Below are positions 17,556 through 62,214 of a stretch of DNA of 64,000 nucleotides, piece by piece. Positions within the stretch are counted from its first letter, which is position 1; each line of letters begins with the position of its first letter. The notes beneath the pieces were generated by a model. The model did not search any database. It saw nothing but the letters and a program-made list of their open reading frames with translations, and had not been told where the DNA came from. Source of the DNA: Zingiber officinale (lineage: Eukaryota; Streptophyta; Magnoliopsida; Zingiberales; Zingiberaceae); assembly GCF_018446385.1 (NCBI RefSeq), contig NC_055997.1:43404254-43468253 (forward strand), read 5' to 3'. The position numbers were made by a program, and so were the translations under genes.

Positions 17556-18370
17556 GAAAACTACAGATATGGTGCGCTGGGCACGGTGGCTTGATGGTTA
17601 ACCTAGAGAAGACTTCTTACTCCACAAAGAGGCTCCCTTTCGATCATGTGCACGTGGAAACGAGCCAATAAAATATCATCACCTAGAAACCAGGGGGAGT
17701 CCCTGGCGAAGGCCCTCCGATGCTCAAGTTAGTACAAGTCCGGATGAGTGAATGAAGAACAGTAGATAACATGCTCGCGAGAGTAAGCTTCAAATGTTCA
17801 GAGAAGGTACCTTGCTAACGGAGAGGACCCCCTTTATATACCACCTCTCATAACCTCTGCAATCATAAGGTGAGGAAGTGTATCAGAGGTTGTTAGGTAA
17901 AGAAAAATGTACAATCAAGGTAATGTGCAATAATTATCCAAGGATCTCCCATTTACCCATGTATATATCTATTTTCGTTTATAGCTTATGTCATTGCTGA
18001 GATTGTTAAAGGAATATGCTGTCATAAGTAGTCTGCGGATGAGAGACTTGATGATTCCTGAAAAAGGTTCCAGAAAATATATTCTCTGACATATAGTTGT
18101 TATTCTGACAGGTTGTTAGGATTCTCTGCTCATGCTGTCGATGAGTATATCTCGGTCAACGTATAAGGTCGGTCGTCTTTATGCATGTCCTCACATTAAG
18201 CTGCTTTGTTATGTATTGAAGGCTATTTAGAAATCCATTCAAGAAATAATATGATGCACTAAGCATACTGGAAATCCATCTGGGAAGCATTATGAAGCTA
18301 TGTACTACAAGCCCAGTTGGATTTTTATTCGGCCAGATATATAATGGACCACCCAGAGAAAAGAAGAAGT

Positions 18371-19462
18371 TGTTGGTGCGGGTAGCACTAACGGTCTAAC
18401 CTAGGTTTTGATGAATGACAAATAGGTTAAGTTAGTTTTGTTGTTATCTGACACTTTGATCGAGTGTGCAGGAGAAGTCCAGACAGGTCGACGGGCTGAC
18501 CGGATGTCTGGCACGAAGTCCAGCTAGGTCGACGGGCTGACCGGATAGCTGGCGAGAAGTCTAAGCGGGTCGACGGGCTGACCGGACGCTTGGCAAGAAG
18601 TCCAGCTAGGTCGACGGGCTGACCGGATAGCTGGCAAGAAGTCCAGATGGGTCGAAGGGCTGACCAGACGTCGGCAGGTAAGTGAGGTAAGTCACTGGAG
18701 GGGAGTGACTGCGAGGACGCGTTCCCGGGAAGGGAACATTAGGCCTCGATCCGGCTTAGATCCATTTCGGATGTCTAAAGTTGAGATCGTGACTAGATTC
18801 CGGTCTCGGAAAGACGGAATCTAAGTCATACTATTTGTGCTAATTCATACTATTATAAAATGTGCTAACAATCTATTTTGCAGGATATATATTGCCTCGG
18901 ACTAACTTTGTTTTGCAGGAAATGGGAGTTTTCTGGAACAAGGTGGTCCGGGCGCCCGGAAAGCAAATTATATCCAGGCCAAGTCGTCGCCACGTGGAGC
19001 ATCTCGGTTTGAGCAGCTACGTCACATTCCAGGCGCTCGGAAGGAATCCAGGCGCCTGGAGCAACATATAAAAGAAGCCCCAGGCAGGAGCTTCAGAATC
19101 ATCTGTTTCACATCTGAGAACTCTGAGATTACTCGCTCTGCTACTCTGCTGCTCTGCGCTCCAACGACGCTCACAAAGCTCCGACGACACGATCCCGCTC
19201 TTTTAAATTCCTTGTCTGTCGGTACAGCTTTGTTTTTTCTTTTCATTAGCATCTTTTTGTACTTAAATTGTAATTATCCGAATTGCTAGTGAATTGCCCA
19301 ACGAAAGTACTCAAGGAGTACGGGCCTTTGAGTAGAAGTCGTCACAGGCTCCGAACGAAGTAAAAAAAACTCTGTGTCTACTTTACTTTTCCGCTGCGCT
19401 TATACTCGATATTTTCGAATCGATATTCAGCCCCCCCCTCTATCGAATCTAACGGTCCTACA
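18371..19462 (+). repeat. 5' LTR of the gag-only element, 1092 bp
   Basis: Contains five tandem hairpin units (18474-18680), a TATA box TATAAAAG at 19067-19074 and GGCGCCCGGA-type motifs upstream of it. Compared with the right LTR it has small indels at GGCGCC repeats. Confidence 0.92.
18474..18680 (+). repeat. Tandem array of five about 41-bp hairpin units in 5' LTR
   Basis: Each unit reads AAGTCC.., an outer arm, inner GGTC, a loop, inner GACC, a GGA bulge, the outer arm complement, then GGCA. Outer arms are CCAGACA/TGTCTGG (18479-18511), CCAGCTA/TAGCTGG (18520-18552), CTAAGCG/CGCTTGG (18561-18593), CCAGCTA/TAGCTGG (18602-18634) and CCAGATG/CGTC-GG in the fifth. The arms change together between units. 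Confidence 0.88.
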
Positions 19463-19464
19463 AG

Positions 19465-19476
19465 TGGTATCAGAGC
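19465..19476 (+). other. Primer binding site, initiator tRNA-Met type
   Basis: TGGTATCAGAGC, two bases after the 5' LTR end. Confidence 0.92.
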
Positions 19477-19709
19477 AGGTACCGCTCTGATTTGGTGCAA
19501 CCACCAATCAGACTGGGGGTGAAACCTTTTTTTTTTTCGGTCTTCACTTTTACACTTTATTCCAAACTGGTCTATTTTTTTAAAATATTTTTTAATTAAA
19601 TCTAAATTGGTGCAACACCAATCTAGATTTTTCTACTATTTTTCCCGCACTACTAATCCAAGACCAAGTCTTGGGATATTTTTTTTTCGGTTATTTACTT
19701 GTGTACAGG

Positions 19710-21380
19710 ATGTCCCAACAAGAAGGCTTCAGCACAGTACGACCTCCACTCTTCAACGGGGACGATTTTCCGTACTGGAAGAAGCGCATGGAGGTTTACC
19801 TCAAAACAGACTTCGACCAGTGGATGAGCGTTACGAGACCCTATAAAATTCCAGCGGACACTTCCGGGAATATACTGGATCCTGAAGACTAGACAACAGA
19901 TTTGAAGAAAAAGGCGTCAACAGAGAATAAAGCAATCAACACTCTACAATGCGGATTAACAAGAGAAGAACTAAACAGAGTCGGTCCACACAAAAACGCT
20001 AAAGAGCTGTGGGACAAATTGATCGAGCTGCACGAGGGAACGAGCGACGCCAAGGTAACAAAACGAGACCTGCTTTTAAATAAAATTTTTAATATAAAAA
20101 TGCAGGAAGGTGAAACGGCAAATCAACTCCACGCAAGGATCAAGGACATCCTTAACGGGCTTCATGCGATAGGCCACCAGATGGAAAATAGAGACTTAAT
20201 AAGGTATGCATTAAATGCTTTTCCACGTAATAGTTTGTGGGCATCAATCGTAGATGCCTACAAAATCTCTAAAAATCTTTCTAAATTAAAATTATACGAG
20301 CTCTTCTGTGAATTAGAATTACATGAACAAACTAATGCTGGAGCCGAGAAAGGTATAGCCTTATTTGCAGGTTCCTCCAAAGAAAAGAAGAGCAAACCTG
20401 AATATGAAGAAGATTCCAACCAAGACTCCGAAGACGAAGAACACCTGGTGAACTTGGTAAGAAAAATATTCACCAGGAGAAAAAGGAGCTTCAGCAAAAA
20501 GGGCCTTCAAAAGATCAGTTCTCCCTCAGAACAAAAGAACGTGACTTGCTACGGCTGCAACAAAAAGGGACACTACAAGAACGAATGTCCAAAACTGAAG
20601 TTCGACAAACCGAAGCCAACCAAAAAGAAGGCCCTCAAAGCAACGTGGGATGACTCCTCGGATGAATCGGAGGAAGAAGAGCAGAAACATCAGAGCCACC
20701 TCGCACTGATGGCCCACGAAGCTGAAACAGAAGACGAGACGGAAGATGAAGACGGGTCTGAACCCGAAACAAGCCACGAGTCCGTACTCGTTTCCGAAGG
20801 CACGAATGAGGTAGATTTTAATTTAAACAAAAAATTTTTTAGAATTATTTCCTGTTTAAATAGTAAATTGATTAAATTAGAAAATGAAAACAAATCACTT
20901 TTTGAGGAAAATCAAAACCTCAAGGAATAAAAAGAAAATACAAATCCAACTCAAGATCTAACACTTGAGGAGGAGAATTTATCATTAAAAAATGAGATTA
21001 ACAATTTAAAAGAAATGTTAGAAAAATTCACAACAAGATCAAAAAATCTAGACTTAATCCTAAATAATCAAAAAGCATGCTATAATAAAACCAGACTAAG
21101 ATATAAGTCGAATTCAAATAAAACCTTCAAATCATTAATAACTCAATGCAAATCAACCAATCTAGCTTGGGTTCCGAAAGCGTGTTTAACCACGCAAATA
21201 GGACTTAATCAATATTATATACCTAAAGAAAAAATACATTATATAAAATCGAATAAACCAAACCAAAATCCAAAATACAAACCTAAATCAAAATTTAAAC
21301 ACTTTAAAAATCAACAAAATTATCACCAAGTTAACTATAACTACAAAAGGAATCGACACAAACCTAAAACCAAAATTTAA
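19710..21380 (+). pseudogene. Copia/Sirevirus gag (UBN2 type), two in-frame stops
   Basis: The frame starts MSQQEGFSTVRPPLFNGDDF and has the UBN2-type gag fold (YWKKRMEVYL, NAKELWDKLIELHEGT, RDLLLNKIFNIKMQEGETA, NQLHARIKDILNGLHAIG). A CCHC knuckle CYGCNKKGHYKNECPK lies near 20550-20597, followed by Asp/Glu-rich repeats and a coiled coil (LNSKLIKLENENKSLFEENQ). TAG at 19890-19892 and TAA at 20928-20930 interrupt one continuous frame that ends at 21380 with a basic tail. Gag binds element RNA and builds the particle. Only two stops and no frameshift suggest recent loss. MSQQ is chosen over the upstream ATG at 19671 because the conserved region starts there. Confidence 0.85.
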
Positions 21381-21920
21381 ATTAATGGCCAATAATTCAG
21401 GGGGAGGCTCCAGAATAGCTGGCACCTCCAAAACTAACTTACCCGACAGGGTAACCCAAAATTAACTAACCCGGTAGGGTAATTAGGATTAGTTAAAAAG
21501 AGACCAAGTTTAACTTGAATCATGGTACTGGTGAAGTTTTTGGATGATAGTACGTTAGAGAAGCTTGGACATCGCATGTCTAGAAAGATATGGTTTCGAT
21601 CTGGTGCATTTGGCCAAGTGGAACTGACCGAAGCTACCCTTAAATGAACCCTAACCAGTTAGACCAAGATTTAGTACTAAGCTCCGTGGATAGGACTATT
21701 CGGAAAACCTCGAAAGGTTGGTTACTTCTAATGACGTCCATATGACTCACCAAACTTAGAAGTTTATCCGAAAATTGCCTATTTGTGGAGACCAAAGCTA
21801 AATCTGAATCTAACACAAGTTAAACCAAAACTCCATAATTAAAAATCCAATTTCATCTCACAAAATCATAGGATTCCCTGATTGATAATATAGATCGGGT
21901 GAGATGAATAAGGCTTCAAA
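21381..21920 (+). other. Noncoding stretch after gag; no pol
   Basis: No protease, integrase or RT motif can be read in any frame. A PPT-like CAGGGGGAGG occurs near 21399 and a short dispersed GGTAGGGTAA near 21473. Confidence 0.6.
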
Positions 21921-22740
21921 ATTTTAATCTTAAAACTTAAAAATTATTTCAAAATTTTAATTTTAAACTTAAAAATAAATTTCAAAATTTTAATTTTAAA
22001 CTTAAAAAATTAATTTCAAAATTTCAATTTTAACCTTAAAAAATTAATTTCAAAATTTTAATTTTAACTTAAAAAATTAATTTCAAAATTTCAATTTTAA
22101 ATTTAAAAAATTAATTTCAAAATTTTAATTTTAAACTTAAAAATTAATTTCAAAATTTTAATTAAACTTAAAAATTAATTTTAATTTTAAACTTAAAAAA
22201 TTAATTTCAAAATTTTAAACTTAAAAATTAATTTCAAAATTCTAATTAAACTTAAAAAAAAATTAATTTCAAAATTTCAATTTTAAACTTAAAAAATTAA
22301 TTTCAAAATTTCAATTTTAAACTTAAAAAATTATTTCAAAATTTTAATTTTAAACTTAAAAAATTAATTTCAAAATTTCAATTTTAAACTTAAAAAATTA
22401 ATTTCAAAATTTTAATTTTAAACTTAAAAAATTAATTTCAAAATTTCAATTTTAAACTTAAAAAATTATTTTCAAAACTTTAATTTTAAACTTAAATTAA
22501 TTTCAAAATTTTAATTTTAAACTTAAAAATTAATTTTAAAACTTAAAAATCATTTCAAAATTTTAATTTTAAACTTAAAAAGTAATTTCAAAATTATAAT
22601 TAAACTTAAAAAAAAAATTTAATTTTAACCTTAAAAAATTAATTTCAAAATTTTAATTTTAAACTTAAAAAATTAATTTCAAAATTTCAATTTTAAACTT
22701 AAAAATTATTTCAAAATTTTAATTTTAAAATTTAATCTCA
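21921..22740 (+). repeat. AT-rich tandem array, about 34 bp x 20+
   Basis: Units alternate AATTTTAAACTTAAAAA and TTAATTTCAAAATTT with small length changes, followed by a poly-A run at about 22740-22754. It separates gag from the second transcription unit, so it may act as a spacer. Confidence 0.9.
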
Positions 22741-22812
22741 AAAAAAAAAAAAAAGGTCAAACACCAGGGGCGGGTGCCCCTGGTATTCCCCTCCGGGGCG
22801 CCCGGAGTTCCC

Positions 22813-22820
22813 TATAAATA
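22813..22820 (+). promoter_or_regulatory. TATA box of the internal ORF
   Basis: TATAAATA sits in a GC-rich setting (CGGGGCGCCCGGAGTTCCC upstream, GGGGGCAGCAGGCGCCCCC downstream), 163 bp before the ATG at 22976. The same GGCGCCCGGA motif lies upstream of the TATA box in this element's LTRs, which suggests a shared promoter type. Confidence 0.6.
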
Positions 22821-22975
22821 GGGGGCAGCAGGCGCCCCCAATCCTTGCCATACAAAAACTTCACTTTTGCCAAGGTTCACTCCGAACCTCAGTGCGAGAG
22901 TATTTTAAATCAAATTTTCTTGCGGTGAAGACGCTGTTGCGATTTAACCGAGGTCGTCAGATCTATATTTTGTCG

Positions 22976-24240
22976 ATGGCTCCTCGGTAAATCTTCTTCC
23001 CCTATCTGAAAATTTATTAAAATTTGTCTTCTCATGTTTTCTTAGAATATTTTTTTTATTATACAGTAGGAAACGAACAAATACTGGTGCTGGACCCTCC
23101 AATGCTAGCACTGACCCTAGGTTTCCCACAGATGAACTAAGGCTTAAGTTTGAGTCAACCATTTATAAGGCCATTATGACTAAATGTATAGATAGATCTT
23201 TCTTTCTAAATTCGTGTGCCTCCGTTATAGAGGTGATAAACCACTATAACTTAAGGAACCTAGTCGAATGTACCAGTCCAGTAAACATAAGTCTGTGTGC
23301 TGAATTTTGCAATAACCTAGTGAAAGTAGACGATCTCACCTATACCACTAGGGCAGCGGGTACTGATATCACGTTTTCTCCTTCGACTATCCGAGAATTT
23401 TTAGAGTTACGTCCATCTGATTGCCCTTTCTTGTGCTATCCTCCCAGGGATCTACCATTCGGAGATCCCTACTCACATATTACTCTCGATACGATTTATT
23501 CGTATTTTTTTGGGGGAGAGCGAGATCCCACTGTGACCCAGTTCAGGTCAGTAGAACTTCGAGTCCAGGACTACGCTCTTTATAGGGTCTTAGTCTGTTG
23601 CGTTTTACCACTGACTACTCGGGACATCGCCGTGATGCGCCCATTCCATTCATTTTTACTCTATGCCCTGAGTCATAGGTTAGATATTGACATCAGCCTA
23701 CATATCTTCTCCACCATTATCTACTCGGCTGGATATGTGATTGATAGACGAGTTCACATGCCGTACTGTCACATTCTGACAGCATATATGTCCTCGTTGC
23801 ACATTGATGTCACTAGAGGAGACATTGCCTATATGACCGAGTTCGATGTTATAGCAGCTAGGAACTTCTCCCTAGCTGGTATCCACATAGATAGGGATGA
23901 CAGGACTATGTCTTGGCGGAGGGGGGCACAGCACCAGCACGACCCAGGCGCACAGGGGGAGGCCGAGCAGGATGAGTTCATGCTTGCACTATTTCCGGAG
24001 GAGGCTGTTCCACCTCCACCACCAGCTCGAGCACCATGTCACGCTCCCCACACTCTAGCCGACCGTATGACCGGACTAGAGAGAGCTATGGCGAGTCTCC
24101 AGCAGGAGAACTCTGGTTTTCATCGGGACATACGGCGAGAGGTTGTCGAATTACGAGCTGCCGGGGAGACCCGACACACTGAGCTGATGGCGCTTCTCCG
24201 ATCCTTGGGATCTGGACCACCCCCTTCATCATCTCAGTAG
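22976..24240 (+). CDS. Spliced ORF inside the gag-only element; resembles 'putative plant transposon protein' family
   Basis: Exon 1 is 22976-22986 (ATGGCTCCTCG), the intron 22987-23066 (80 bp, donor CG|GTAAAT, acceptor TTATACAG|T), and exon 2 23067-24240. Splicing gives 394 residues starting MAPRRKRTNTGAG, with no stop. The usual ATG-only reading would start at 23176 and lose a conserved-looking N-terminus. The middle (VIEVINHYNLRNLVE, DITFSPSTIREFLELRPSD, LTTRDIAVMRPFHSFLLYAL, MPYCHILTAYMSSLHIDV) follows the order seen in the plant family annotated Transposase_32; this is recognition by eye. The C-terminus is Pro-rich (PPPPPARAP), then a coiled coil (RMTGLERAMASLQQENSGF). Function is unknown. 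It is intact while gag is broken. Confidence 0.65.
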
Positions 24241-25585
24241 CTCTAGTTATGACTCACTTCTGTAGCTACACTACCTGTAAAATATTTTGGATCTATCTAG
24301 TGATATTTCAGACTTGCATTGATTATGTTCAATCTTGGTAGACTAGGATTTTTCAAAAATATTTTCAAAAATGGTTTTATCAAATTATAAGTTAAACTTG
24401 TTTGTTTTCAAAACTTTCCATTTTTAGATTAAAAAAAAAACAGTTTTGGCCTTAGACTAGTTTGAATCCTTAGAAAGCATGTACCCATAGGACTAGTTTT
24501 TGAGCATCTCACCAACACCTTATGCTTACCTTGCTTGTGTTTGACAAACATAGAAAGGGGTGAGATGCATAGGCCAACTGTCTGGACTTAAGATGCTTAT
24601 TTCAGTGCATCGGCATAAGTCTGGACGTTAAATACAAATCAGACATTAATCAGATTAAGTTCATCAGTCAAGTCAAACACTGACTACTTATAATCAACTT
24701 AATCCGACTAACCAAGTGAAAGCTACTATCTTCTGATAATTAGTTAATACCTAATTGGTTAGGCAGTTGTTTAATGTTAAGTATCAAGTTCAGGGGGAGA
24801 AATTATTTAAAATTTTGTGTGTTTGAAAAATGCTTTTGTACATCTATTTTAAAACTAACTTATTTTTTGAACACCAGTTTACAAAAAGTTAAATTTAACT
24901 AAGTGTTTGAAAAACTTGGAAGTTTAATCCCACCTAATTTTTAAAATTTGATTTTAAAAGTTGAATATTACAAATTTAAACTTATTCAGTTTTGTAACAT
25001 ATGTTTGAAAATTAAACTTTCCAAACTTAGCTTTTATCAAATTAGCCTTAAAAATTTATTTTGGCAAAAAATTTTACTTCTTGAAAAATTAATCTTACTT
25101 GTTTAATTTTTGCTTTGTTTTGAAAAATCGAAGTTGAAAATTTACCTTTTGAAAAGTAATTGTTACTTAAACTTGAAAAGTAAATTTGAAAAACCTGATT
25201 TGAAAAATTTTACACTCTTGAAAAGTTAAACTTGATTAACTTTAAATTTATACTTTTCAAAATTCAACTTGTCTCCCCCAAGTCAACTTGACTATTTTTT
25301 TAACTTGGTGTTAAAAATTGTACTTTTATCTTTGAATTTTGAACCAAACTTAGATATTTTTCAAAATTAGCTGTTTTTTAATTTGATTACTTTTTACAGT
25401 AACTCTACACTATGATTGTTTACCCTTGCTTATTTTTTTTTATGAATGCCAAAGGGGGAGGGTTAGGTGGTTAAGTTAGCTAAACCAAATTGAAAACACT
25501 AAAACTAACTTTAAAACCGATGTACCTGTTTTAGTTATTTTTTTGCGTCATTTCACTAACTTAACCAGGTTAAAAAGGGGGAGAT
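24241..25585 (+). other. AT-rich 3' noncoding region with repeated PPT-like tracts
   Basis: No ORF is seen. Many short TTTGAAAA/TTTTCAAA inverted motifs occur. GGGGGAG tracts lie at about 24791, 25451 and 25576; the last directly abuts the 3' LTR and is the likely plus-strand primer. Confidence 0.65.
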
Positions 25586-26655
25586 TGTTGGTGCGGGTAG
25601 CACTAACGGTCTAACCTACGTTTTGATGAATGACAAATAGGTTAAGTTAGTTTTGTTGTTATCTGACACTTTGATCGAGTGTGCAAGAGAAGTCCAGACA
25701 GGTCGACGGGCTGGCCGGATGTCTGGCACGAAGTCCAGCTAGGTCGACGGGCTGACCGGATAGCTGGCAAGAAGTCCAAGCGGGTCGACGGGCTGACCGG
25801 ACGCTTGGCAAGAAGTCCAGCTAGGTCGACGGGCTGACCGGATAGCTGGCAAGAAGTCCAGATGGGTCGAAGGGCTGACCGGACGTCTGGCAGGTAAGTG
25901 AGGTAAGTCACTGGAGGGGAGTGACTGCGAGGACGCGTTCCCGGGAAGGGAACATTAGGCCTCGATCCGGCTTAGATCCATTTCGGATGTCTAAAGTCGA
26001 GATCGTGACTAGATTCCGGTCTCGGAAAGACGGAATCTAAGTCATACTATTTGTGCTAATTCATACTATTATAAAATGTGCTAACAATCTATTTTGCAGG
26101 ATATATATTGCCTCGGACTAACTTTGTTTTGCAGGAAATGGGAGTTTTCTGGAACAAGGTGGTCCTGGCGCCCGGAGGGGATCCGGGCGCCCGGAAAGCA
26201 AATTATATCCAGGCCAAGTCGTCGCCACGTGGAGCATCTCGGTTTGAGCAGCTACGTCACATTCCAGGCGCCTGGTGCAACATATAAAAGAAGCCCCAGG
26301 CAGGAGCTTCAGAATCATCTGTTTCACATCTGAGAACTCTGAGATTACTCGCTCTGCTGCTTGCGCTCCAACGAGCTCCGACGACACGATCCCGCTCTTT
26401 TAAATTCCTTGTCTGTCGGTACAGCTTTGTTTTTTCTTTTCATTAGCATCTTTTTGTACTTAAATTGTAATTATCCGAATTGCTAGTGAATTGCCCAACG
26501 AAAGTACTCAAGGAGTACGGGCCTTCGAGTAGGAGTCGTCACAGGCTCCGAACGAAGTAAAAAAACCCTGTGTCTACTTTACTTTTTCGCTGCGCTTATA
26601 CTCGATATTTTCGAATCGATACTCACCCCCCTCTATCGAATCTAACGGTCCTACA
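25586..26655 (+). repeat. 3' LTR of the gag-only element, 1070 bp
   Basis: Same ends as the 5' LTR. TATA box at 26283-26290. It has an extra GGGGATCCGGGCGCCCGG segment near 26177 absent from the 5' LTR, and lacks a CGGAAGGAATCC segment present there. Confidence 0.92.
25689..25895 (+). repeat. Five-unit hairpin array in 3' LTR
   Basis: Same five units as in the 5' LTR but with better pairing: unit 3 is CCAAGCG/CGCTTGG and unit 5 CCAGATG/CGTCTGG with one G-T pair. This copy therefore shows the intact structure. Confidence 0.88.
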
Positions 26656-27346
26656 GAAGTGTTCTGAGATGTTTGGTCATTATTTTAAGTCGAAGTGCCT
26701 TAGGCCTGGTTGGTCTTTTGTCTGGTCGGGTGTCTAATAATTTGGAGGTAAGGTAAACCTAGAAGTCTAACCGAATCATATATAAGGGATGGGTATAAAG
26801 ACATATAAACCCGCTCGAGTCTATTATTGAATGGATACACAAGAATATCATCATGTGGAAATCCATAGGGTTGACTGGTAATCAGGTAGACCGAATGTGT
26901 GTAGAGAGCCTCGCACAGAGTAAGGAGTTTGGCCTTTCCCTCAATCGGACCTATGGTCGATCGAATGCAAGGTGGATCAGACATCTCGACCGGCCTATAA
27001 GGCCGACCGTCCTTAAACTCAATCAGTTATTGAATGACCGAACACGCTGTCTTTTTAGTTCAAGAGAAAAATACTAAACTCCTTATATTCGACCGGCTTA
27101 AGGGTTGGTCGTCCCCTCCTAAGCAGCTTGTAATCTGGTCGGGCTGGGCCTGAGAGCTTTAGCACTGGGCGACCAACCAAGCCAAGTGGGGAATGCTCTC
27201 TTCCCTTGACTTTGGCCGCCATGTCATCTTAACTTTGACCATCACGTCATTTTGATTTTGACCTCCACGTCACCTTGACTTTGATTTCTATGTCAACTTA
27301 ACTTTGATCGCTACGTTATCTTTTGAGTTTGCACGTTACATCCTGT

Positions 27347-29176
27347 TGTTGCTAGAGTCCTAGAGCCAATTAGTTGATGATTGTATTATGGACTTATTGT
27401 ATCATATTTTTTTTATATTAATAAAGGCATTTGTTTAGTTATTATACTTACTTGTATTGGTGCCAAATAAACTAAGTATAATAACGTCCTTGAGTAGAAG
27501 GTTCTTACCTATATCAATCGATTGGTTGAATCGATAGTGAGATGATATAGGGAACACTACTCTAAATCATTCCTAGTCGAGTATTAACATTCAGGGACAA
27601 TGTTAATACAATAAGACTAGCATGTAGGTCAACTCGATGACTTGATCTCACAAGTCATGGATATAGAGATATCAAGTTGACACATGGGTATACATTAGAG
27701 AATGTATACTGAATGACCCACCATGAGAAAGTATCATGGATCATTATATGAGTGTCATATACTTTCTCATGTGGCTATTAGTATGACTACTAGTCCTTAG
27801 ACCTGAAGTCACCATGGTTCCCTACATAAGGAGTTATGTACTTTGGTTTCGTCAAATGTCACCCGTAACTGGGTGGACTATAAAGGCGATTACTGGGTAT
27901 GTAACAAATTATGCGGAGGGATGTGAGTGATGTAGATGAGATCTATCCCTCCTATATGACGGGAGAGACATCGGTATTCTTGATAGAGTGAGACCACGAA
28001 GTGCATGGTCATGCCCAAATGAGTCAATATAAGATATTGAGCTCATTTTATTTAGTGAGTCTACTTGGAGTTCAAGATTTAGATTGATCAGAGGATGGCA
28101 CGGTCTATGCCTCACATTGACCAATCTAGATGTCTAGGATAGAAGGACACTTATCATATATTATGAGGAGTCACAATTAGTAGTCACAAGGTGATATTGG
28201 ATCTCAACATTCTTGTAACATTGGGTAGTAATGATGTGTTGCTAGATACCGCTCATTACTTATGCTCCTAAATGAGTTTAGGGGCATTGCCAACATTACA
28301 AGAACCTATAGGGTCACACACTAAGGACAATTAGATGGAGATTAGGTTCATATGATGAACCAAGAGGATTAGATTCATTTGATGAATCAAATTGGATTAA
28401 TAATAATCCAAATTGGGCTAATTGAGTTGGACTCAAGTTGATTCAAGTATTCAATGAGTCTAATTTAGATTATGACTCATTAAATCAACTTAATTTAATG
28501 AATTAGATTCATTATATTAAGTTGGCTTGAATCAAATAGTTAGATTAGATCAACCATGGAAGAGATTTGGTCAAATTTGACTTGACTTGAGAGGAAAAGG
28601 AAGAGTCAAGTTTGACTTGACTAATTGCCACATCATTAGTGAGATGGCAAGATGTGGACCAATGATGATGCTCCACATCATCAAAGTGTTCCACCTCATG
28701 GGGGTTACAAAGCCATTCTCTTTAATAGCTATATTTAATGAGAATGGGGGTTACACATTCTAATGTGGCCGACCACTTTATTGTGGAAGTGAATTTGATT
28801 TTTTCATTCAAGCCTCATTATTCCTTCTTCTTCCTCTAGCTCTCCCTCTCCCTCTCCTCCTCAACTTTGCCGAACCACACATAGGTGCTAGCACACCTCT
28901 TTGTGTGTTTTTCTCCACCTACGTGTCCGTGTGGTTGCTTCTAGAGGAGTATCTATTTTGATACTCTTGAGATCCGACACCGTTTGGACGAGCGGGAACG
29001 CGAAGGGCTTCACTTCAAAGGTATAACCCTTTTTCCATGTAGATCTAGGAGTAGATCTCGGTAGAAACTCGTATTCGTAGTTTTCAAAATTTTTTTTTGC
29101 ACGGATCCGTTGGCTTTGGGGCTTTCAGGGTTTCCGCGACGCGAAAACGTCGTTTTCACGGCCGAAAAACCCAACA
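27347..29176 (+). repeat. 5' LTR of near-intact copia, 1830 bp
   Basis: TG..CA ends. It contains repeated TGACTTGACTTGA-like and TTAATTCAT-like motifs in the U3 half and a GACGCGAAAACG stretch near the end. It is nearly identical to 34640-36470. Confidence 0.94.
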
Positions 29177-33600: not shown

Positions 33601-34619
33601 AGGTTGTAGGGGACATAGTTATCTTCCTCATATTGTATGTGGATGACATACTGCTCATTGGGAAGGACATCCCTATGCTTCAGTCTGTCAAGACATGGCT
33701 AGGGAGTTGCTTATCAATGAAGGACTTAGGTGAGGCATCCCGCATTCTAGGGATACAGATCTATAGAGATAGATCTAAGAGATTGCTTGGCCTAAGTCAG
33801 AGTACATACATTGACAAGGTACTCCTTCGGTTTGCTATGCAGAACTCCAAGAAGGGATTTCTACCGATGTCACACGGCGTGAGTCTTTCGAAGACTCAAG
33901 CTCCCTCTTCTAGAGAGGAGAGAGACCGCATGGATCAGATCCCTTATGCCTCAGCCATAGGATCGATCATGTACGCCATGCTATGTACTCGACCTGATGT
34001 ATCGTATGCTTTGAGCATGACGAGTAGATACCAGTCAGATCCAGGTGAAAGTCACTGGATAGCGGTCAAGAATATTCTTAAGTACTTAAGAAGGACTAAA
34101 GAATATTTCTTGATATATGGAGGCAATGATGAGCTAGCTGTAAAGGGTTACAGTGATGCTAGCTTCCAGACCGACCAGGATGACTATAGATCGCAATTGG
34201 GGTTCGTGTTTTGCATTAATGGTGGTGCTGTGAGCTCGAAGAGTTCGAAGCAGGACACAGTAGCTGATTCTACGACAGAGGCCGAGTATATTGCTGCATC
34301 AGAGGCAGCAAAGGAGGCAGTTTGGATTCGCAAGTTCATCACTGAACTTGGGGTGGTTCCTAGCATTGCTGACCCTATTGAGCTCTATTGTGACAACAAT
34401 GAAGCTATAGCACAGGCGAAGGAACCTCGCTCACACCAGCGGACCAAACACATACTACGACGCTTCCATCTCATTCGAGAGATCATCGAGAGAGGAGATG
34501 TGAAGATTTGCAGAGTACCTACAGAAGCTAACATCGCAGATCCCTTAACCAAGGCTTTGGCACAGAGGAAGCATGATGGTCACACTAGGTCATTTGGGCT
34601 TAGACCCTACACTGATTAG
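30684..34619 (+). pseudogene. Copia gag-pol polyprotein, one frame, two nonsense codons
   Basis: Starts MTSNTNTFSLRSILEKDKLN. In order: gag; CCHC knuckle CFHCSQTGHWKRNC near residue 242; protease DTGCASHI near 290; GAG-pre-integrase LWHCRFGHIND; integrase with HSDVCSPF, FTDDFSRYG and SERRNR (DDE); RT with FKSIRIMLAIAAYHDYE, WQMDVKTTFLNGN and YVDDILL near 985; RNase H with GYSDASFQTD, STTEAEYIAASEAAKE and ELYCDNNEA. TGA at 31635-31637 (expected TGG) and TAA at 32844-32846 (probably CAA) are the only breaks in 1311 codons. The polyprotein would supply all enzymes for retrotransposition. It ends 20 bp before the 3' LTR. Confidence 0.93.
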
Positions 34620-34639
34620 CACTAGTGCTAGTGGGAGAT

Positions 34640-36470
34640 TGTTAGCTAGAGCCCTAAAGCCAATCATTTGATGATTGTATTAGGGACTTATTGTATCATA
34701 TTTTTTTTATATTCATAAAGGCATTTGTTTGGTTATTATACTTACTTGTATTGATGCCAAATAAACTAAGTATAATAACGTCCTTGAGTAGAAGGTTCTT
34801 ACCTATATCAATCGATTGGTTGAATCGATAGTGAGATGATATATGGAACACTACTCTAAATCATTCCTAGTCGAGTATTAACATTCAGGGACAATGTTAA
34901 TGCAATAAGATTAGCATGTAGGTCAACTCGATGACTTGATCTCACAAGTCATGGATATAGAGATATCAAGTTGACACATGGGTATACATTAGAGAATGTA
35001 TACTGAATGATCCGTCATGAGAAAGTATCATGGATCGTTATATGAGTGTCATATACTTTCTCATGTGGCTATTAGTATGACTACTAGTCCTTAGACCTGA
35101 AGTCACCATGGTTCCCTACATAAGGAGTTATGTACTTTGATTTCGTCAAACGTCACCCATAACTGGGTGGACTATAAAGGCGATTACTGGGTATGTAACA
35201 AATTATGCGGAGGGATGTGAGTGATGTAGATGAGATCTATCCCTCCTATATGACGGGAGAGACATCGGTATTCTTGATAGAGTGAGACCACGAAGTGCAT
35301 GACCATGCCCAAATGAGTCAATATAAGATATTGAGCTCATTTTATTTAGTGAGTCTACTTGGAGTTCAAGATTTAGATTGATCAGAGGATGACACGGTCT
35401 ATGCCTCACATTGATCAATCTAGATCTCTAGGATAGAAGGACACTTATCATATATTGTGAGGAGTCACAATTAGTAGTCACAAGGTGATATTGGATCTCA
35501 ACATTCTTGTAACATTGGGTAGTAATGATGTGTTGCTAGATACCGCTCATTACTTATGCTCCTAAATGAGTTTAGGGGCATTGCCAACGTTACAAGAACC
35601 TATAGGGTCACACACTAAGGACAATTAGATGGAGATTAGGTTCATATGATGAACCAAGAGGATTAGATTCATTTGATGAATCAAATTGGATTAAGAGTAA
35701 TCCAAATTGGGCTAATTGAGTTAGACTCAAGTTGATTCAAGTATTCAATGAGTCTAATTTAGATTATGACTCATTAAATCAACTTAATTTAATGAATTAA
35801 ATTCATTATATTAAGTTGGCTTGAATCAAATGGTTAGATTAGATCAACCATGGAAGAGATTTGGTCAAGTTTGACTTGACTTGAGAGGAAAAGGAAGAGT
35901 CAAGTTTGACTTGACTAATTGCTACATCATTAGTGAGATGGCAAGATGTGGACCAATGATGATGCTCCACATCATCAAAGTGTTCCACCTCATGGGGGTT
36001 ACAAAGTCATTCTCTTTAATGACTATATTTAATGAGAATGGGGTTACACATTCTAATGTAGCCGGCCACTTTAGTGTGGAAGTGAATTTGATTTTTTCAT
36101 TCAAGCCTCATTATTCCTTCTTCTTCCTCTAGCTCTCCCTCTCCCTCTCCTCCTCAACTTGGCCGAACCACACATAGGTGCTAGCACACCTCTTTGTGTG
36201 TTTTTCTCCACCTACATGTCCGTGTGGATACTTCTAGAGGAGTATCTATTTTGATACTCTTGAGATCCGATACCGTTTGGACGAGCAGAAACGCGAAGGG
36301 TTTCGCTTCAAAGGTATGACCCTTTTTCCATGTAGATCTAGGAGTAGATCTCGGTAGAAACTCGTATTCGTAGTTTTCGAAATTTTTTTTTGCACGAATC
36401 CGTTGGCTTTGGGGCTTTCGGGGTTTCCGCGACGCGAAAACGCGGTTTTCGCGGCCCGAAAAACCCAACA
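34640..36470 (+). repeat. 3' LTR of near-intact copia, 1831 bp
   Basis: Begins TGTTAGCTAGAG after the purine tract and ends AAACCCAACA, followed by the target duplication CCTGT. Confidence 0.94.
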
Positions 36471-53102: not shown

Positions 53103-53143
53103 ATACAATCATCAAATGATTTGCTCTAGGGCTCTAACTAACA
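53103..53143 (-). repeat. Inverted 41-bp tip of the near-intact copia family's LTR
   Basis: The reverse complement begins TGTTAGTTAGAGCCCTAGAG and matches the first 41 bp of the LTR at 34640 with a few changes. It points opposite to the LTR piece that follows. Confidence 0.8.
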
Positions 53144-55036
53144 GTATTGGTGCCAAATAACTAAGTATAATAGCGTCCTTGAGTAGAGGGTTCTTACCTA
53201 TATCAATCGGTTAGTTGAACCGATAGTGAGATGATATAGGGAACACTACTCTTAATCATTCATAGTCAAGTATTAACATTCAGGGACAATGTTAATGCGA
53301 CGAGACTAACATGTAGGTCAACTTGATGACTTGATCTCACAAGTCATGGATATGGCGATATCAAGTTGACACATGGGTATGCATTAGAGAATGCATACTG
53401 AATGACCGCCATGAGAAAGTATCATGGATCGTTATATGAGTGTCATATACTTTCTCATGTGGCTATTAGTATGACTACTAGTCCTTGGACTTGAAGTCAC
53501 CATGGTTCCCTACATAAGGAGTTACGTACTTTGGCTTCGTTAAACGTCACCCGTAACTGGGTGGACTATAAAGGCGATTACTGGGTATGTAACAAATTAT
53601 GCGGAGGGATATGAGTGATGTAGATGGGATCTATCTCTCCTATATGACGGGAGTGACATCAATATTCGTGATAGAGTGAGACCACAAAGTGCATGGCCAT
53701 GCCCAAATGAGTCAATATAAGATATTGAGCTCATTTGATCGAGTGAGTCTACTTGGAGTTCAAGATTTAGATTGATTAGAGGATGACACAGTCTATGCCT
53801 CACATTGATCAATGTAGATGTCAAGGATAGAAGGGCACTTGTCATATATTGTGAAGAGTCACAATTAGTAGTCACAAGGTGATGTTGGATCTCAACATTC
53901 TTGTAACTTGGGTAGTAATGATGTATTGCTAGATACCGCTCATTACTTATGCTTCTAAATGGGTTTAGGAGCATTGCCAACGTTACAAGAACCTATAGGG
54001 TCACACACAAAGGACAATTAGATGGAGATTAGGTTCATTTGATGAACCTAAAGGATTAGGTTCATGTGATGAACTAAATTGGATTAAGAGTAATCCAAAT
54101 TAGGCTAATTGAGTTGGACTCAATTTGGTTCATGTATTAAATGAGTCTAATTTGGACTTAGACTCATTGAATCAATTTAATTCAATGAATAGGGATTCAT
54201 TAAATTAAAATTGACTTGAACAAATGGTTAGATTAGATCAACCAAGGGAGAGAAGTGGTCAAGTTTGACTTGACTTGAGAGAAAGATGAAGGGTCAAGTT
54301 TGACTTGACCATTTGCCACCTCATTGGTGAGTTGGCATTAAGTGGATAATGGTGATGTGCCACATCATCAAGGCTAGCACATGTGTGTGTCACCTCATGA
54401 GGGAGATCAAGAGTTTTTGACTCTTGAAATTCCATGGAGTATATTGTTAGGATCGATGGTCGCGGCTAGAGAGGGGGGGTGTGAATAGCCGACCCCAAAT
54501 CTTCGTTTCTTTCTACAAATCAAGTTAGCGCAGCGGAAAAATAACAACCGAAATGTAAATGGAGAATTCAAACCTCAAGCACAGCGATGTAACGAGGTTC
54601 GGAGATGAAACTCCTACTCCTCGGCGTGTCCGTAAGGTGGACGAAGCCTATCAATCCGTCGGTGGATGAGACCCCGGAAAATCGGCTAATATGAACTCCT
54701 TCTGGGTGGAGAAACCTCGCCACAATAACTCTTGCAACAGCAAGATAGAAGTACACAAAATACAAAGAAGCACAAGACAATATGAATGTAAAACAAACAA
54801 GCTTGCCTTCTCGTCTGGAGTCCATTGATGAAGCAGCAGCTTCACTGATGCCAGCAGGGAAGCTCACGCGAAGCTTCTCAGCAAAGCTCGCAGAAGGAAC
54901 CTGGAAGAACTTGCAGAAGCAAGAAGAATAACCTGTAGAGTCGCTCGACTCTTTATATAGCTGAACCTGCAAACCTGTGAAGGCAGAAGAAGACACAGAA
55001 GACCGAGATCTAGCCGTTGTCACTCACAACGGCTAG

Positions 55037-55320
55037 GCCTGGACCGATCAGGCTCCAACCTGATCGGTCCACACTGTCCCTGATCGGTCTTGGGGACCGA
55101 TCAGGCTAAGCTTGGACCGATCAGGCTATGTCCTGATCGGTCCAGGAGGAGTCTGATCGGTCCCTGGACCGATCACCCTTTCTCCTTCTTCTCTTCTGTT
55201 TGCTTCCTGATCGGTCTTCAGACCGATCAGATAATCCACAGAGGCATTCTGTTTGGTTACTGATCGGTCACTAGACCGATCAGCCGTATCACTGGATCGG
55301 TCCCCAGATCGATCCAGAGC
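55037..55320. repeat. Hairpin array of CCTGATCGGTCC / GGACCGATCAGG
   Basis: At least six dyads: GGACCGATCAGG with CCTGATCGGTCC near 55041-55072, repeats near 55079-55142 and 55150-55178, then AGACCGATCAG with CTGATCGGTCT near 55208-55230 and CTGATCGGTC with GACCGATCAG near 55260-55284. The last is CTGGATCGGTCC/CAGATCGATCCAG near 55292-55318. Stems are 9-12 bp. Confidence 0.85.
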
Positions 55321-55357
55321 TTGGTTTTTCCCAATACCAAGTCCCAAGTCTCCCACA

Positions 55358-55560
55358 CCAACATCCGGTCAACCTTGACCTGTTGGTACATCATGCTTAG
55401 TATCCAGTCACTCCCTTGACCTGCTAAGACTCCCCACCAAGTGTCCGGTCAATCCCTTTGACCCACTTGGACTTTTCTCTTCGTGCCAAGTATCCGGTCA
55501 CTCCCTTGACCTACTTGACATTCTCAACACCAGATGTCCGATCATTCTTGATCCATCTGG
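55358..55560. repeat. Five two-stem hairpin units with changing arms
   Basis: Outer arms: CCAACA/TGTTGG (55358-55386), CTTAGTA/TGCTAAG (about 55396-55427), CCAAGTG/CACTTGG (55437-55470), CCAAGTA/TACTTGA (55486-55518), CCAGATG/CATCTGG (55530-55560). After each left arm comes TCC, then inner GGTCA..TGACC (GATCA..TGATC in the last). On the minus strand this equals the unit found in the 18371 element's LTRs, bulge included. Confidence 0.88.
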
Positions 55561-55564
55561 ATTT

Positions 55565-55790
55565 TTCCTTGCCCGGCTTCACTCACCAGGACTTCCCAAC
55601 TGCCTGGCTTCACTCACCAGGACTTTCACCAACTGCCTGGCTTCACTCACCAGGACTTTCACTTTCACCTAGCTTCACTCACTAGGGTTTTCACCTGGCT
55701 TCACTCACCAGGATTTCCAATCTGCCTGGCTTCACTTACCAGGACTTCCAAACTGCCTAGCTTCACTCACTAGGACTTTTACATCTGCCT
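55565..55790. repeat. Short hairpin array CCTGG..CCAGG
   Basis: About seven units of CCTGG CTTCACTCA CCAGG, spaced 25-30 bp. Two or three units read CCTAG..CTAGG, a paired change. One (near 55571) reads CCCGG and breaks a pair. Confidence 0.85.
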
Positions 55791-55794
55791 TCCT

Positions 55795-56075
55795 GGTCTA
55801 GAGAACGAGCTACCGAGCCCTCTCTGACCTAGTCCGGAGAACGAGCTACCGAGCCCTCTCCGACTTCCACATCCGGTCTAGAGAATGAGCTACCGAGCCC
55901 TCTCTGACCTAGTCCAGAGAACGAGCTACTGAGCCCTCTCCGACTTCCACTTGCCAAGTTCCCATACTTGGACTTCTCCGTGCCAAGTCTCCATACTTGG
56001 ACTTTCTCCCGTGCCAAGCTCCCTGCTTGGACTTTTCCCGTGCCAAGCTCCCTGCTTGGACTCTTCCATGCCAAG
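55795..56075. repeat. Two further tandem motifs in the solo LTR
   Basis: AGAACGAGCTACCGAGCCCT recurs about four times (55800-55945) between AGAG and CTCT arms. Then GCCAAGT/ACTTGG (two units) and GCCAAGC/GCTTGG (two units) follow at 55953-56060, again with paired changes. Confidence 0.82.
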
Positions 56076-56089
56076 TCAACTCACCTCGG

Positions 56090-61857: not shown

Positions 61858-62214
61858 AAGCTTCCTTTATTTAGCATCTAATCACTTGATCAACCATGTC
61901 TTTGATGTCCTATCTTTGTTGACCCATAGGGTTTGTCCTACTAGATATCCAGTCCCACTGACCCATCTGGACTTCATCTTCCTGGTATATAGTCTCTTGA
62001 TCCACTGAGTCTTCTGTTGCCTAGTACCCGATCTACTTAACCTACCAGGCTTCTGTTTCCTAGTATTTAGTTCACTTGACCTATTAATAATTTTATGTTA
62101 AGTCATGCACACTTAACAAAGATATCAGAACAAAAAAGGACTTAGCATTAAACTTTTGCCAACATCAAAATATAAGTTTGATTATCCGGTACTCTTTGCA
62201 CCAACAATCTCTTC
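61858..62214 (-). repeat. Partial Sirevirus-like LTR, minus strand
   Basis: Contains decayed versions of the ATCCAGTC..TGACCCATCTGG hairpin units (61940-62090) and ends CTTTGCACCAACA, as in the solo LTR. Immediately right is CAATCTCTTCCTTTTT, the complement of a PPT, so this is a 3' LTR. Confidence 0.65.

Follow-up and report, generated by a model that had tools for sequence, protein, structure and literature searches.

The long terminal repeats (LTRs) of Sireviruses are already known to carry palindromic repeats. Bousios et al. (2010, PMC2829016) describe repeated palindromic motifs, or RM boxes, before the TATA box. An element has at least eight copies, which mostly start 200-400 bp into the LTR; the motifs given there are 10-20 bp long with one consensus per element, such as CGGTCTGACCG of Osr10, CGGTCAGACCG of Osr8 and CGGTCGACCG of Vitis. 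The regulatory part of Sirevirus LTRs is further described as holding palindrome clusters with strong predicted structure that are said to evolve rapidly, and the palindromes of maize Sireviruses are described as small-RNA hotspots (PMC5311732, PMC10760457). Such palindromes have so far been read as promoter boxes and small-RNA hotspots. A different kind of system, the template-switch hairpins described for rRNA and microRNA loci (PMC8794818), shows compensatory and often multi-base stem changes.

To these systems we compared a locus of ginger, Zingiber officinale, in a window of 64,000 nucleotides (NC_055997.1, positions 43,404,254 to 43,468,253), where both LTRs of a Sirevirus-type Copia element carry a tandem array of hairpin units (Table 1). 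Like RM boxes, the ginger units are repeated palindromes in the upstream half of the LTR, before the TATA box, and like the maize palindromes they are clustered in the regulatory part. Some RM boxes share a GGTC...GACC core, CGGTCTGACCG, CGGTCAGACCG and CGGTCGACCG being close to the ginger inner stem, and the ginger LTR also has a CGG-CCG box near the TATA box, as RM boxes do. The ginger units differ: each is a 33-nt two-stem hairpin whose loop has 8 nt, whose bulge is one-sided and whose outer arms covary. The array begins 104 bp into the LTR, before the TATA box, and holds five units per LTR. In each unit the CGG belongs to the loop and the CCG to the inner stem and bulge (CGGGCTGACCG), so that the two do not pair with each other, whereas the separate palindrome CGGGCGCCCG at 18949 does have CGG-CCG symmetry. 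Because this strict symmetry fails, though the position matches, we do not class the units as RM boxes. Measured against the published motifs (PMC2829016), the two-stem covarying form is new, and among the titles and abstract openings consulted we recognised no published report of covarying LTR hairpins.

Table 1. Features of the ginger element and of related arrays (positions in the window unless a locus is named)
Feature	Position	Strand	Basis or remark
Full element	18371-26655	+	LTR alignment, ends, direct repeat
5' LTR	18371-19462	+	LTR alignment, ends
3' LTR	25586-26655	+	LTR alignment, ends
Direct repeat GAAGT	18366-18370 and 26656-26660		one copy each side of the element
Five-unit tandem array of 41-bp two-stem hairpin units	18475-18680	+	U3 of 5' LTR
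Unit 1	18479-18511	+	arms CCAGACA/TGTCTGG, inner stem GGTCG/TGACC, 3'-side bulge GGA
Unit 2	18520-18552	+	arms CCAGCTA/TAGCTGG
Unit 3	18561-18593	+	arms CTAAGCG/CGCTTGG, one T.G; CCAAGCG in 3' LTR
Unit 4	18602-18634	+	arms CCAGCTA/TAGCTGG
Unit 5	18643-18674	+	left arm CCAGATG; right arm CGTC-GG, one-base deletion
Palindrome CGGGCGCCCG	18949-18958	+	upstream of TATA box; like CGG-CCG repeated motifs of Sireviruses
TATA box ATATAAAA	19066-19073	+	read by eye
Run of eight C, CCCCCCCC	19431-19438	+	24 bp from the 3' end of the 5' LTR; like Sirevirus integrase signal
AGTGG and primer binding site (PBS) TATCAGAGC	19463-19476 (PBS 19468-19476)	+	Sirevirus-type 5' junction
Gag ORF, 345 aa	19893-20930	+	Copia-type Retrotran_gag_2, PF14223, E 3e-15
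Terminal polypurine tract AGGGGGAG, then AT/TG	25576-25583	+	directly before 3' LTR
Five-unit array, second copy	25690-25898	+	U3 of 3' LTR
Related hairpin modules	55355-56085	-	other LTR-like stretch; similar AAGTCC...GG flanks
Second hairpin-rich family	27380-28800, 34600-36080, 53120-54360; L034:2990-4480, L036:8630-10000, L038		two copies in L038, minus strand

The element belongs to a Sirevirus-type Copia family of ginger. Three published marks are fully present: the polypurine tract AGGGGGAG immediately before the AT/TG of the 3' LTR, the 5' junction CA/A(T or G)TGG followed by the 9-bp PBS TATCAGAGC (here CA/AGTGG TATCAGAGC), and a C-rich integrase signal, which is placed about 21 bp from the LTR end in Sireviruses (PMC2829016). 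Several extra copies of the polypurine tract, mostly within 0.5 kb of the 3' LTR, are also described for the Sirevirus linker (PMC2829016); in ginger they lie at 21399, 23954, 24792 and 25453, only the last of them within that distance. Sirevirus Gag is expanded to about 660 aa. The 345-aa Gag frame of this element has short additional frames beside it and Gag is not read through, and its zinc knuckle scores slightly under the Pfam cut-off. A Pfam search of 12 ORFs of the internal region, with ORFs below 60 aa and some other overlapping frames set aside, gave no pol domain, so no RT was available for tree placement; the family seems to be non-autonomous. Downstream of Gag, a 430-aa open frame (22948-24237) has a weak match to Transposase_32 (31.5 bits against a cut-off of 45), and an AT-rich array at 21915-22729 holds about 24 copies of a 34-bp unit. 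At the palindromic GC-rich boxes close to the TATA box (18947-19047 and 26163-26263) a 19-bp piece is absent from each LTR, not the same one in both, as though each had dropped one repeat after insertion. Two partial proteins filed under Salmonella enterica have 69% and 64% identity with the ginger Gag; they come from contigs of 1061 and 1337 bases and look like plant contamination of bacterial assemblies.

Each unit reads AAGT, a 7-nt arm, GGTC, an 8-nt loop GACGGGCT (or GAAGGGCT), GACC, GGA, a second 7-nt arm and C[A/G]. A sequence-only reading of this locus had described five 41-bp units with an inner stem GGTC/GACC and a GGA bulge, placed in an LTR upstream of its TATA box, and on all of these points it was right. 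Its list of arms holds for four units; the fifth, given as CCAGATG/CGTCTGG, is broken in the 5' LTR, and the arms listed are those of the 3' LTR (25858-25890), where they include a T.G pair. Apart from this T.G pair all five outer arms pair in the 3' LTR array, in which unit 1 has one inner-stem change. RNA folding of seven single units and of one complementary strand gave the hairpin with its bulge in every case, at -13.1 to -15.4 kcal/mol for the five units of the element (z -1.9 to -2.6), and in the sense-strand folds of its units an additional G.U pair closes the loop. Folded as DNA, three units gave the same shape on both strands at -7.3 to -8.8 kcal/mol, about half the RNA energy. For the whole array of 224 nt, the minimum free energy (MFE) structure is not five separate hairpins, many alternative pairings between units being available, and its z against 60 mononucleotide shuffles is -0.9 in the 5' LTR and -2.1 in the 3' LTR. 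No model of Rfam 15 matched within 18300-26700 up to E 1, and a known structured RNA family was dropped as a candidate.

To examine the paired changes of the arms, we scanned the fetched loci with an anchor on flank and core, not on the arms, which gave 215 units. Without four rows of L041 and L045 the set came to 128 distinct units; removal of two spurious rows of L010 and addition of eight distant units found by eye gave 134. Among these, 92.4% of 1597 cells hold standard pairs, compared with 83.2% (sd 0.5) in shuffled alignments and 13.6-39.2% when the partners are slid by 1-3 columns. Cells with a two-sided change number 221 (86.7 in shuffles) and further pair types 28 (21.7 in shuffles); none of 500 shuffles reached the observed values for standard pairs, two-sided cells or pair types. 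Two-sided changes occur at nine pairs (5.9 in shuffles; 7 of 500 reached nine), namely at all seven outer pairs and at two of the five inner pairs. Some outer states are not linked by a G.U step, such as C-G, A-U and G-C at pair 5 and A-U and U-A at pair 3. The loop-closing pair is G.U in 98, G-C in 12 and A-U in 10 of 127 cells, and its mostly G.U form fits a sense RNA. By eye, the bulge lies on the 3' side in most aligned units. The paired arm changes claimed from the single sequence are therefore above both shuffled and slid controls and extend to other unit types and arrays. It should be kept in mind that the cells count sequences rather than events. Four arm types, which return in the majority of arrays, supply most of the signal, so the independent events are few, roughly eight or nine as estimated, not computed, from the pair types.

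Arms that change and yet stay paired mean either that the shape matters or that a copying mechanism maintains the pairing. Our first-ranked reading, which we hold only tentatively, is that the units are modular two-stem hairpins whose pairing selection maintains during replication of the element and which act in the 3' end of its RNA. Within near-constant flanks (AAGT...GGCA), each module has an inner stem, a loop and a 3'-side GGA bulge that are likewise almost invariant, and its outer 7-bp stem is free in sequence provided that its arms pair. The constant loop and bulge may be read by a protein, for example Gag or a host factor, the outer stem merely supporting them. We infer that selection bears on pairing during replication because the hairpins would act in the full-length RNA, at its 3' end between the polypurine tract and R. 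Against this stand the lack of an RNA-strand preference (see below), the MFE structure of the whole array, the single-stem module classes (see below) and the negative Rfam search. It is more doubtful that the arrays are RNA recognition modules of the genomic RNA, in which constant loop-and-bulge heads on swappable stems would be repeated for higher avidity towards Gag or an export factor, and differences between neighbouring stems would be maintained to make every unit pair within itself. If this were true, a plant retrotransposon would bear at its 3' end a tandem, evolvable RNA tag, and several arrays of the genome would hold tags of this kind.

The copies themselves decay freely. The arrays of the two LTRs differ by one arm base in unit 3, one inner-stem base in unit 1, and a bulge base (G>A in the 5' LTR) and the one-base arm deletion in unit 5, and none of these differences is compensated. 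Among the 195 of 215 units that lie within three changes of a main type, 88 changes are one-sided and 10 two-sided; the 88 include some from chimeric or indel-shifted units, three of the 10 sit in other arrays, and changes before and after insertion are mixed. Because of this ratio and the uncompensated differences between the LTRs, pairing is not kept in inserted copies and, if it is kept at all, is kept in the replicating lineage. The paired changes among unit types suggest that the shape of the hairpins was maintained while the element was active. The sequence-only reading had expected covariation in a large alignment and arms that do not mutate independently: the first is seen in the 134 distinct units, whereas the arms of sampled copies do mutate independently (88 against 10). 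Its conclusion that the fold is under selection is not supported in the form given: the units travel as entire modules, and most of the family consists of four arm types, so that we are dealing with a small number of old changes and not with many independent ones. The conclusion is weakened again by the capacity of template switching to make paired changes (PMC8794818). The observation itself is now better supported than it was from one sequence, and selection on the fold is plausible.

Template switching during replication or reverse transcription, which would copy one arm onto the other and give complementarity without function, is the second-ranked explanation, and we consider it rather unlikely. 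The account of RNA hairpins in PMC8794818 predicts multi-base compensatory changes, and the ginger arm types do differ at several adjacent pairs; tandem repeats and reverse transcription may also favour switches. Moreover, seven of the scanned units (in L016, L058, L059, L062, L064 and L067) are chimeras with the left arm of one type and the right arm of another. Their breakpoints fall in the identical core and their hairpins are mispaired, which means that recombination or strand transfer between units yields mispaired chimeric hairpins. According to the same source, the mechanism should also produce inverted loops and lengthened stems, whereas in ginger the one-sided GGA bulge and the stem length are constant across most two-stem units. 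A pattern search for inverted loops returned 136 rows, and a flank check of 205 normal and 205 reverse-strand core readings left none of them inverted: none of the 205 reverse-strand cores has an AAGT flank at fewer than two mismatches, while 196 of the 205 normal ones have it, so that no core is inverted inside normal flanks. The sampled arms are also mostly left uncorrected, as the one-sided changes show. The missing inversion and the persistent bulge weigh against switching as the means of upkeep, although the arm types may have arisen by it.

Third in rank, and unlikely in our judgement, is regulation at the DNA level, in which the units would be dyad-symmetric boxes upstream of the TATA box, bound by a transcription factor or extruded as cruciforms. 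The U3 position and the GGTC...GACC inner part resemble the published Sirevirus motifs; however, a protein that reads sequence leaves the free but paired outer arms unexplained, the DNA hairpins are weak, and the bulge interrupts the arms. Conservation of promoter-box sequence as the sole explanation is rejected for the outer arms, since their sequence varies. A strand signature could separate RNA from DNA, for on the sense strand a C>T change in the 3' arm produces G.T and the corresponding G>A change in the 5' arm produces A.C, with the same seven-base context in both arms. Over all arm positions of the 195 sampled units there are 35 G.T and 34 A.C, four of the latter being an inserted A. 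Genome-wide, pair 4 of the CCAGCTA unit is G.T at 491 and A.C at 311 places (P = 2×10−10, binomial test with equal rates). This excess is no evidence for RNA, because a similar bias is present elsewhere in the LTR (C>T at 154 of 3026 and G>A at 122 of 3416 sites; excess over this background, z 0.7), and it was rejected as an RNA-strand signature. Neither the sampled units nor the genome-wide pair 4 of CCAGCTA show an RNA-strand preference beyond the background mutation bias, which fits DNA. Where both LTRs carry a form, a same-strand partner is expected 4-12 kb away. Among the first 100 matches listed for each form, such a partner was counted for 16 G.T and 8 A.C places (both by eye) and for 40 places of the intact D unit. 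The counts lean towards G.U being better tolerated before insertion, but the difference is not significant (P = 0.24).

The host element is very abundant in ginger. The 20-bp core occurs 83,568 times at up to two mismatches in the 3.09-Gb assembly, while the reversed control occurs three times. Outside ginger, the core pattern was found once each, as an exact match, in 27 stretches of a prokaryote collection, which we take as chance and not as relatives. With over 80,000 near-exact cores in the genome, and with LTR pairs also numerous (for 40 of 100 listed matches to one intact unit there is a same-strand partner at LTR distance), the role of the palindromes becomes testable by counting the changes before and after insertion. 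Four arm types account for most units of the family, and the arrays differ in module order, for example A B C B D, B C B C D and B B C D. The remaining possibility, that paired-arm modules of whatever origin are old and were later shuffled as whole cassettes free of constraint, draws on these four types and variable orders and ranks fourth, as very unlikely, since other similarly flanked arrays have additional pair types and recombination in the identical 19-bp core should often mispair, whereas clear chimeras make up only 7 of the 215 scanned units.

Similar modules are present in seven other arrays in six sequences, which lie on the minus strand of the window (55355-56085 and 61900-62060) and in L032, L034, L041, L045 and L048. 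All keep an AAGTC-type anchor, and their arms and loops differ. In three of the seven (55355-56085, L032 and L048) a purine-rich stretch followed by TTGGTG or TTGGTT, like the start of an LTR, can be seen by eye. At 26 of 48 anchors an arm begins that pairs without a mismatch for 5 bp or longer, and at 17 of 48 for 6 bp or longer, compared with means of 1.3 (maximum 7) and 0.3 (maximum 4) in 500 segment shuffles, a contrast that is inflated by the choice of regions partly for hairpins already seen. Among the flank-anchored units 16 arm strings pair, and some of these are shorter versions of others. In an unselected sample of 20 arbitrarily placed loci and the window, AAGT or AAAT leads into perfect 7-bp arms at 19 of 932 occurrences, compared with 26 of 3767 for permuted words, a weak result, in that 7 of the 19 are units of the element itself and the control word ATAA has the same rate (7 of 326). 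Many units of the seven arrays have a single stem, with neither inner stem nor bulge; at 55355-56085, two-stem units occupy 55355-55564 and single-stem, bulge-free classes follow onward to 56085. A common recognition head is therefore not a general feature, as other classes with similar flanks consist of one stem and lack both inner stem and bulge.

A row of GATCGGTC-type palindromes (55010-55310) adjoins this second hairpin array. A second LTR-like family, which was spotted through its hairpins, has them nearly wall to wall (Table 1). In seven copies of it that are 90-98% alike, 384 predicted pairs give 9 two-sided, 61 one-sided and 58 broken cells, and when the partners are slid by 2-4 columns there are 0-2 two-sided and 1417-1769 broken cells.
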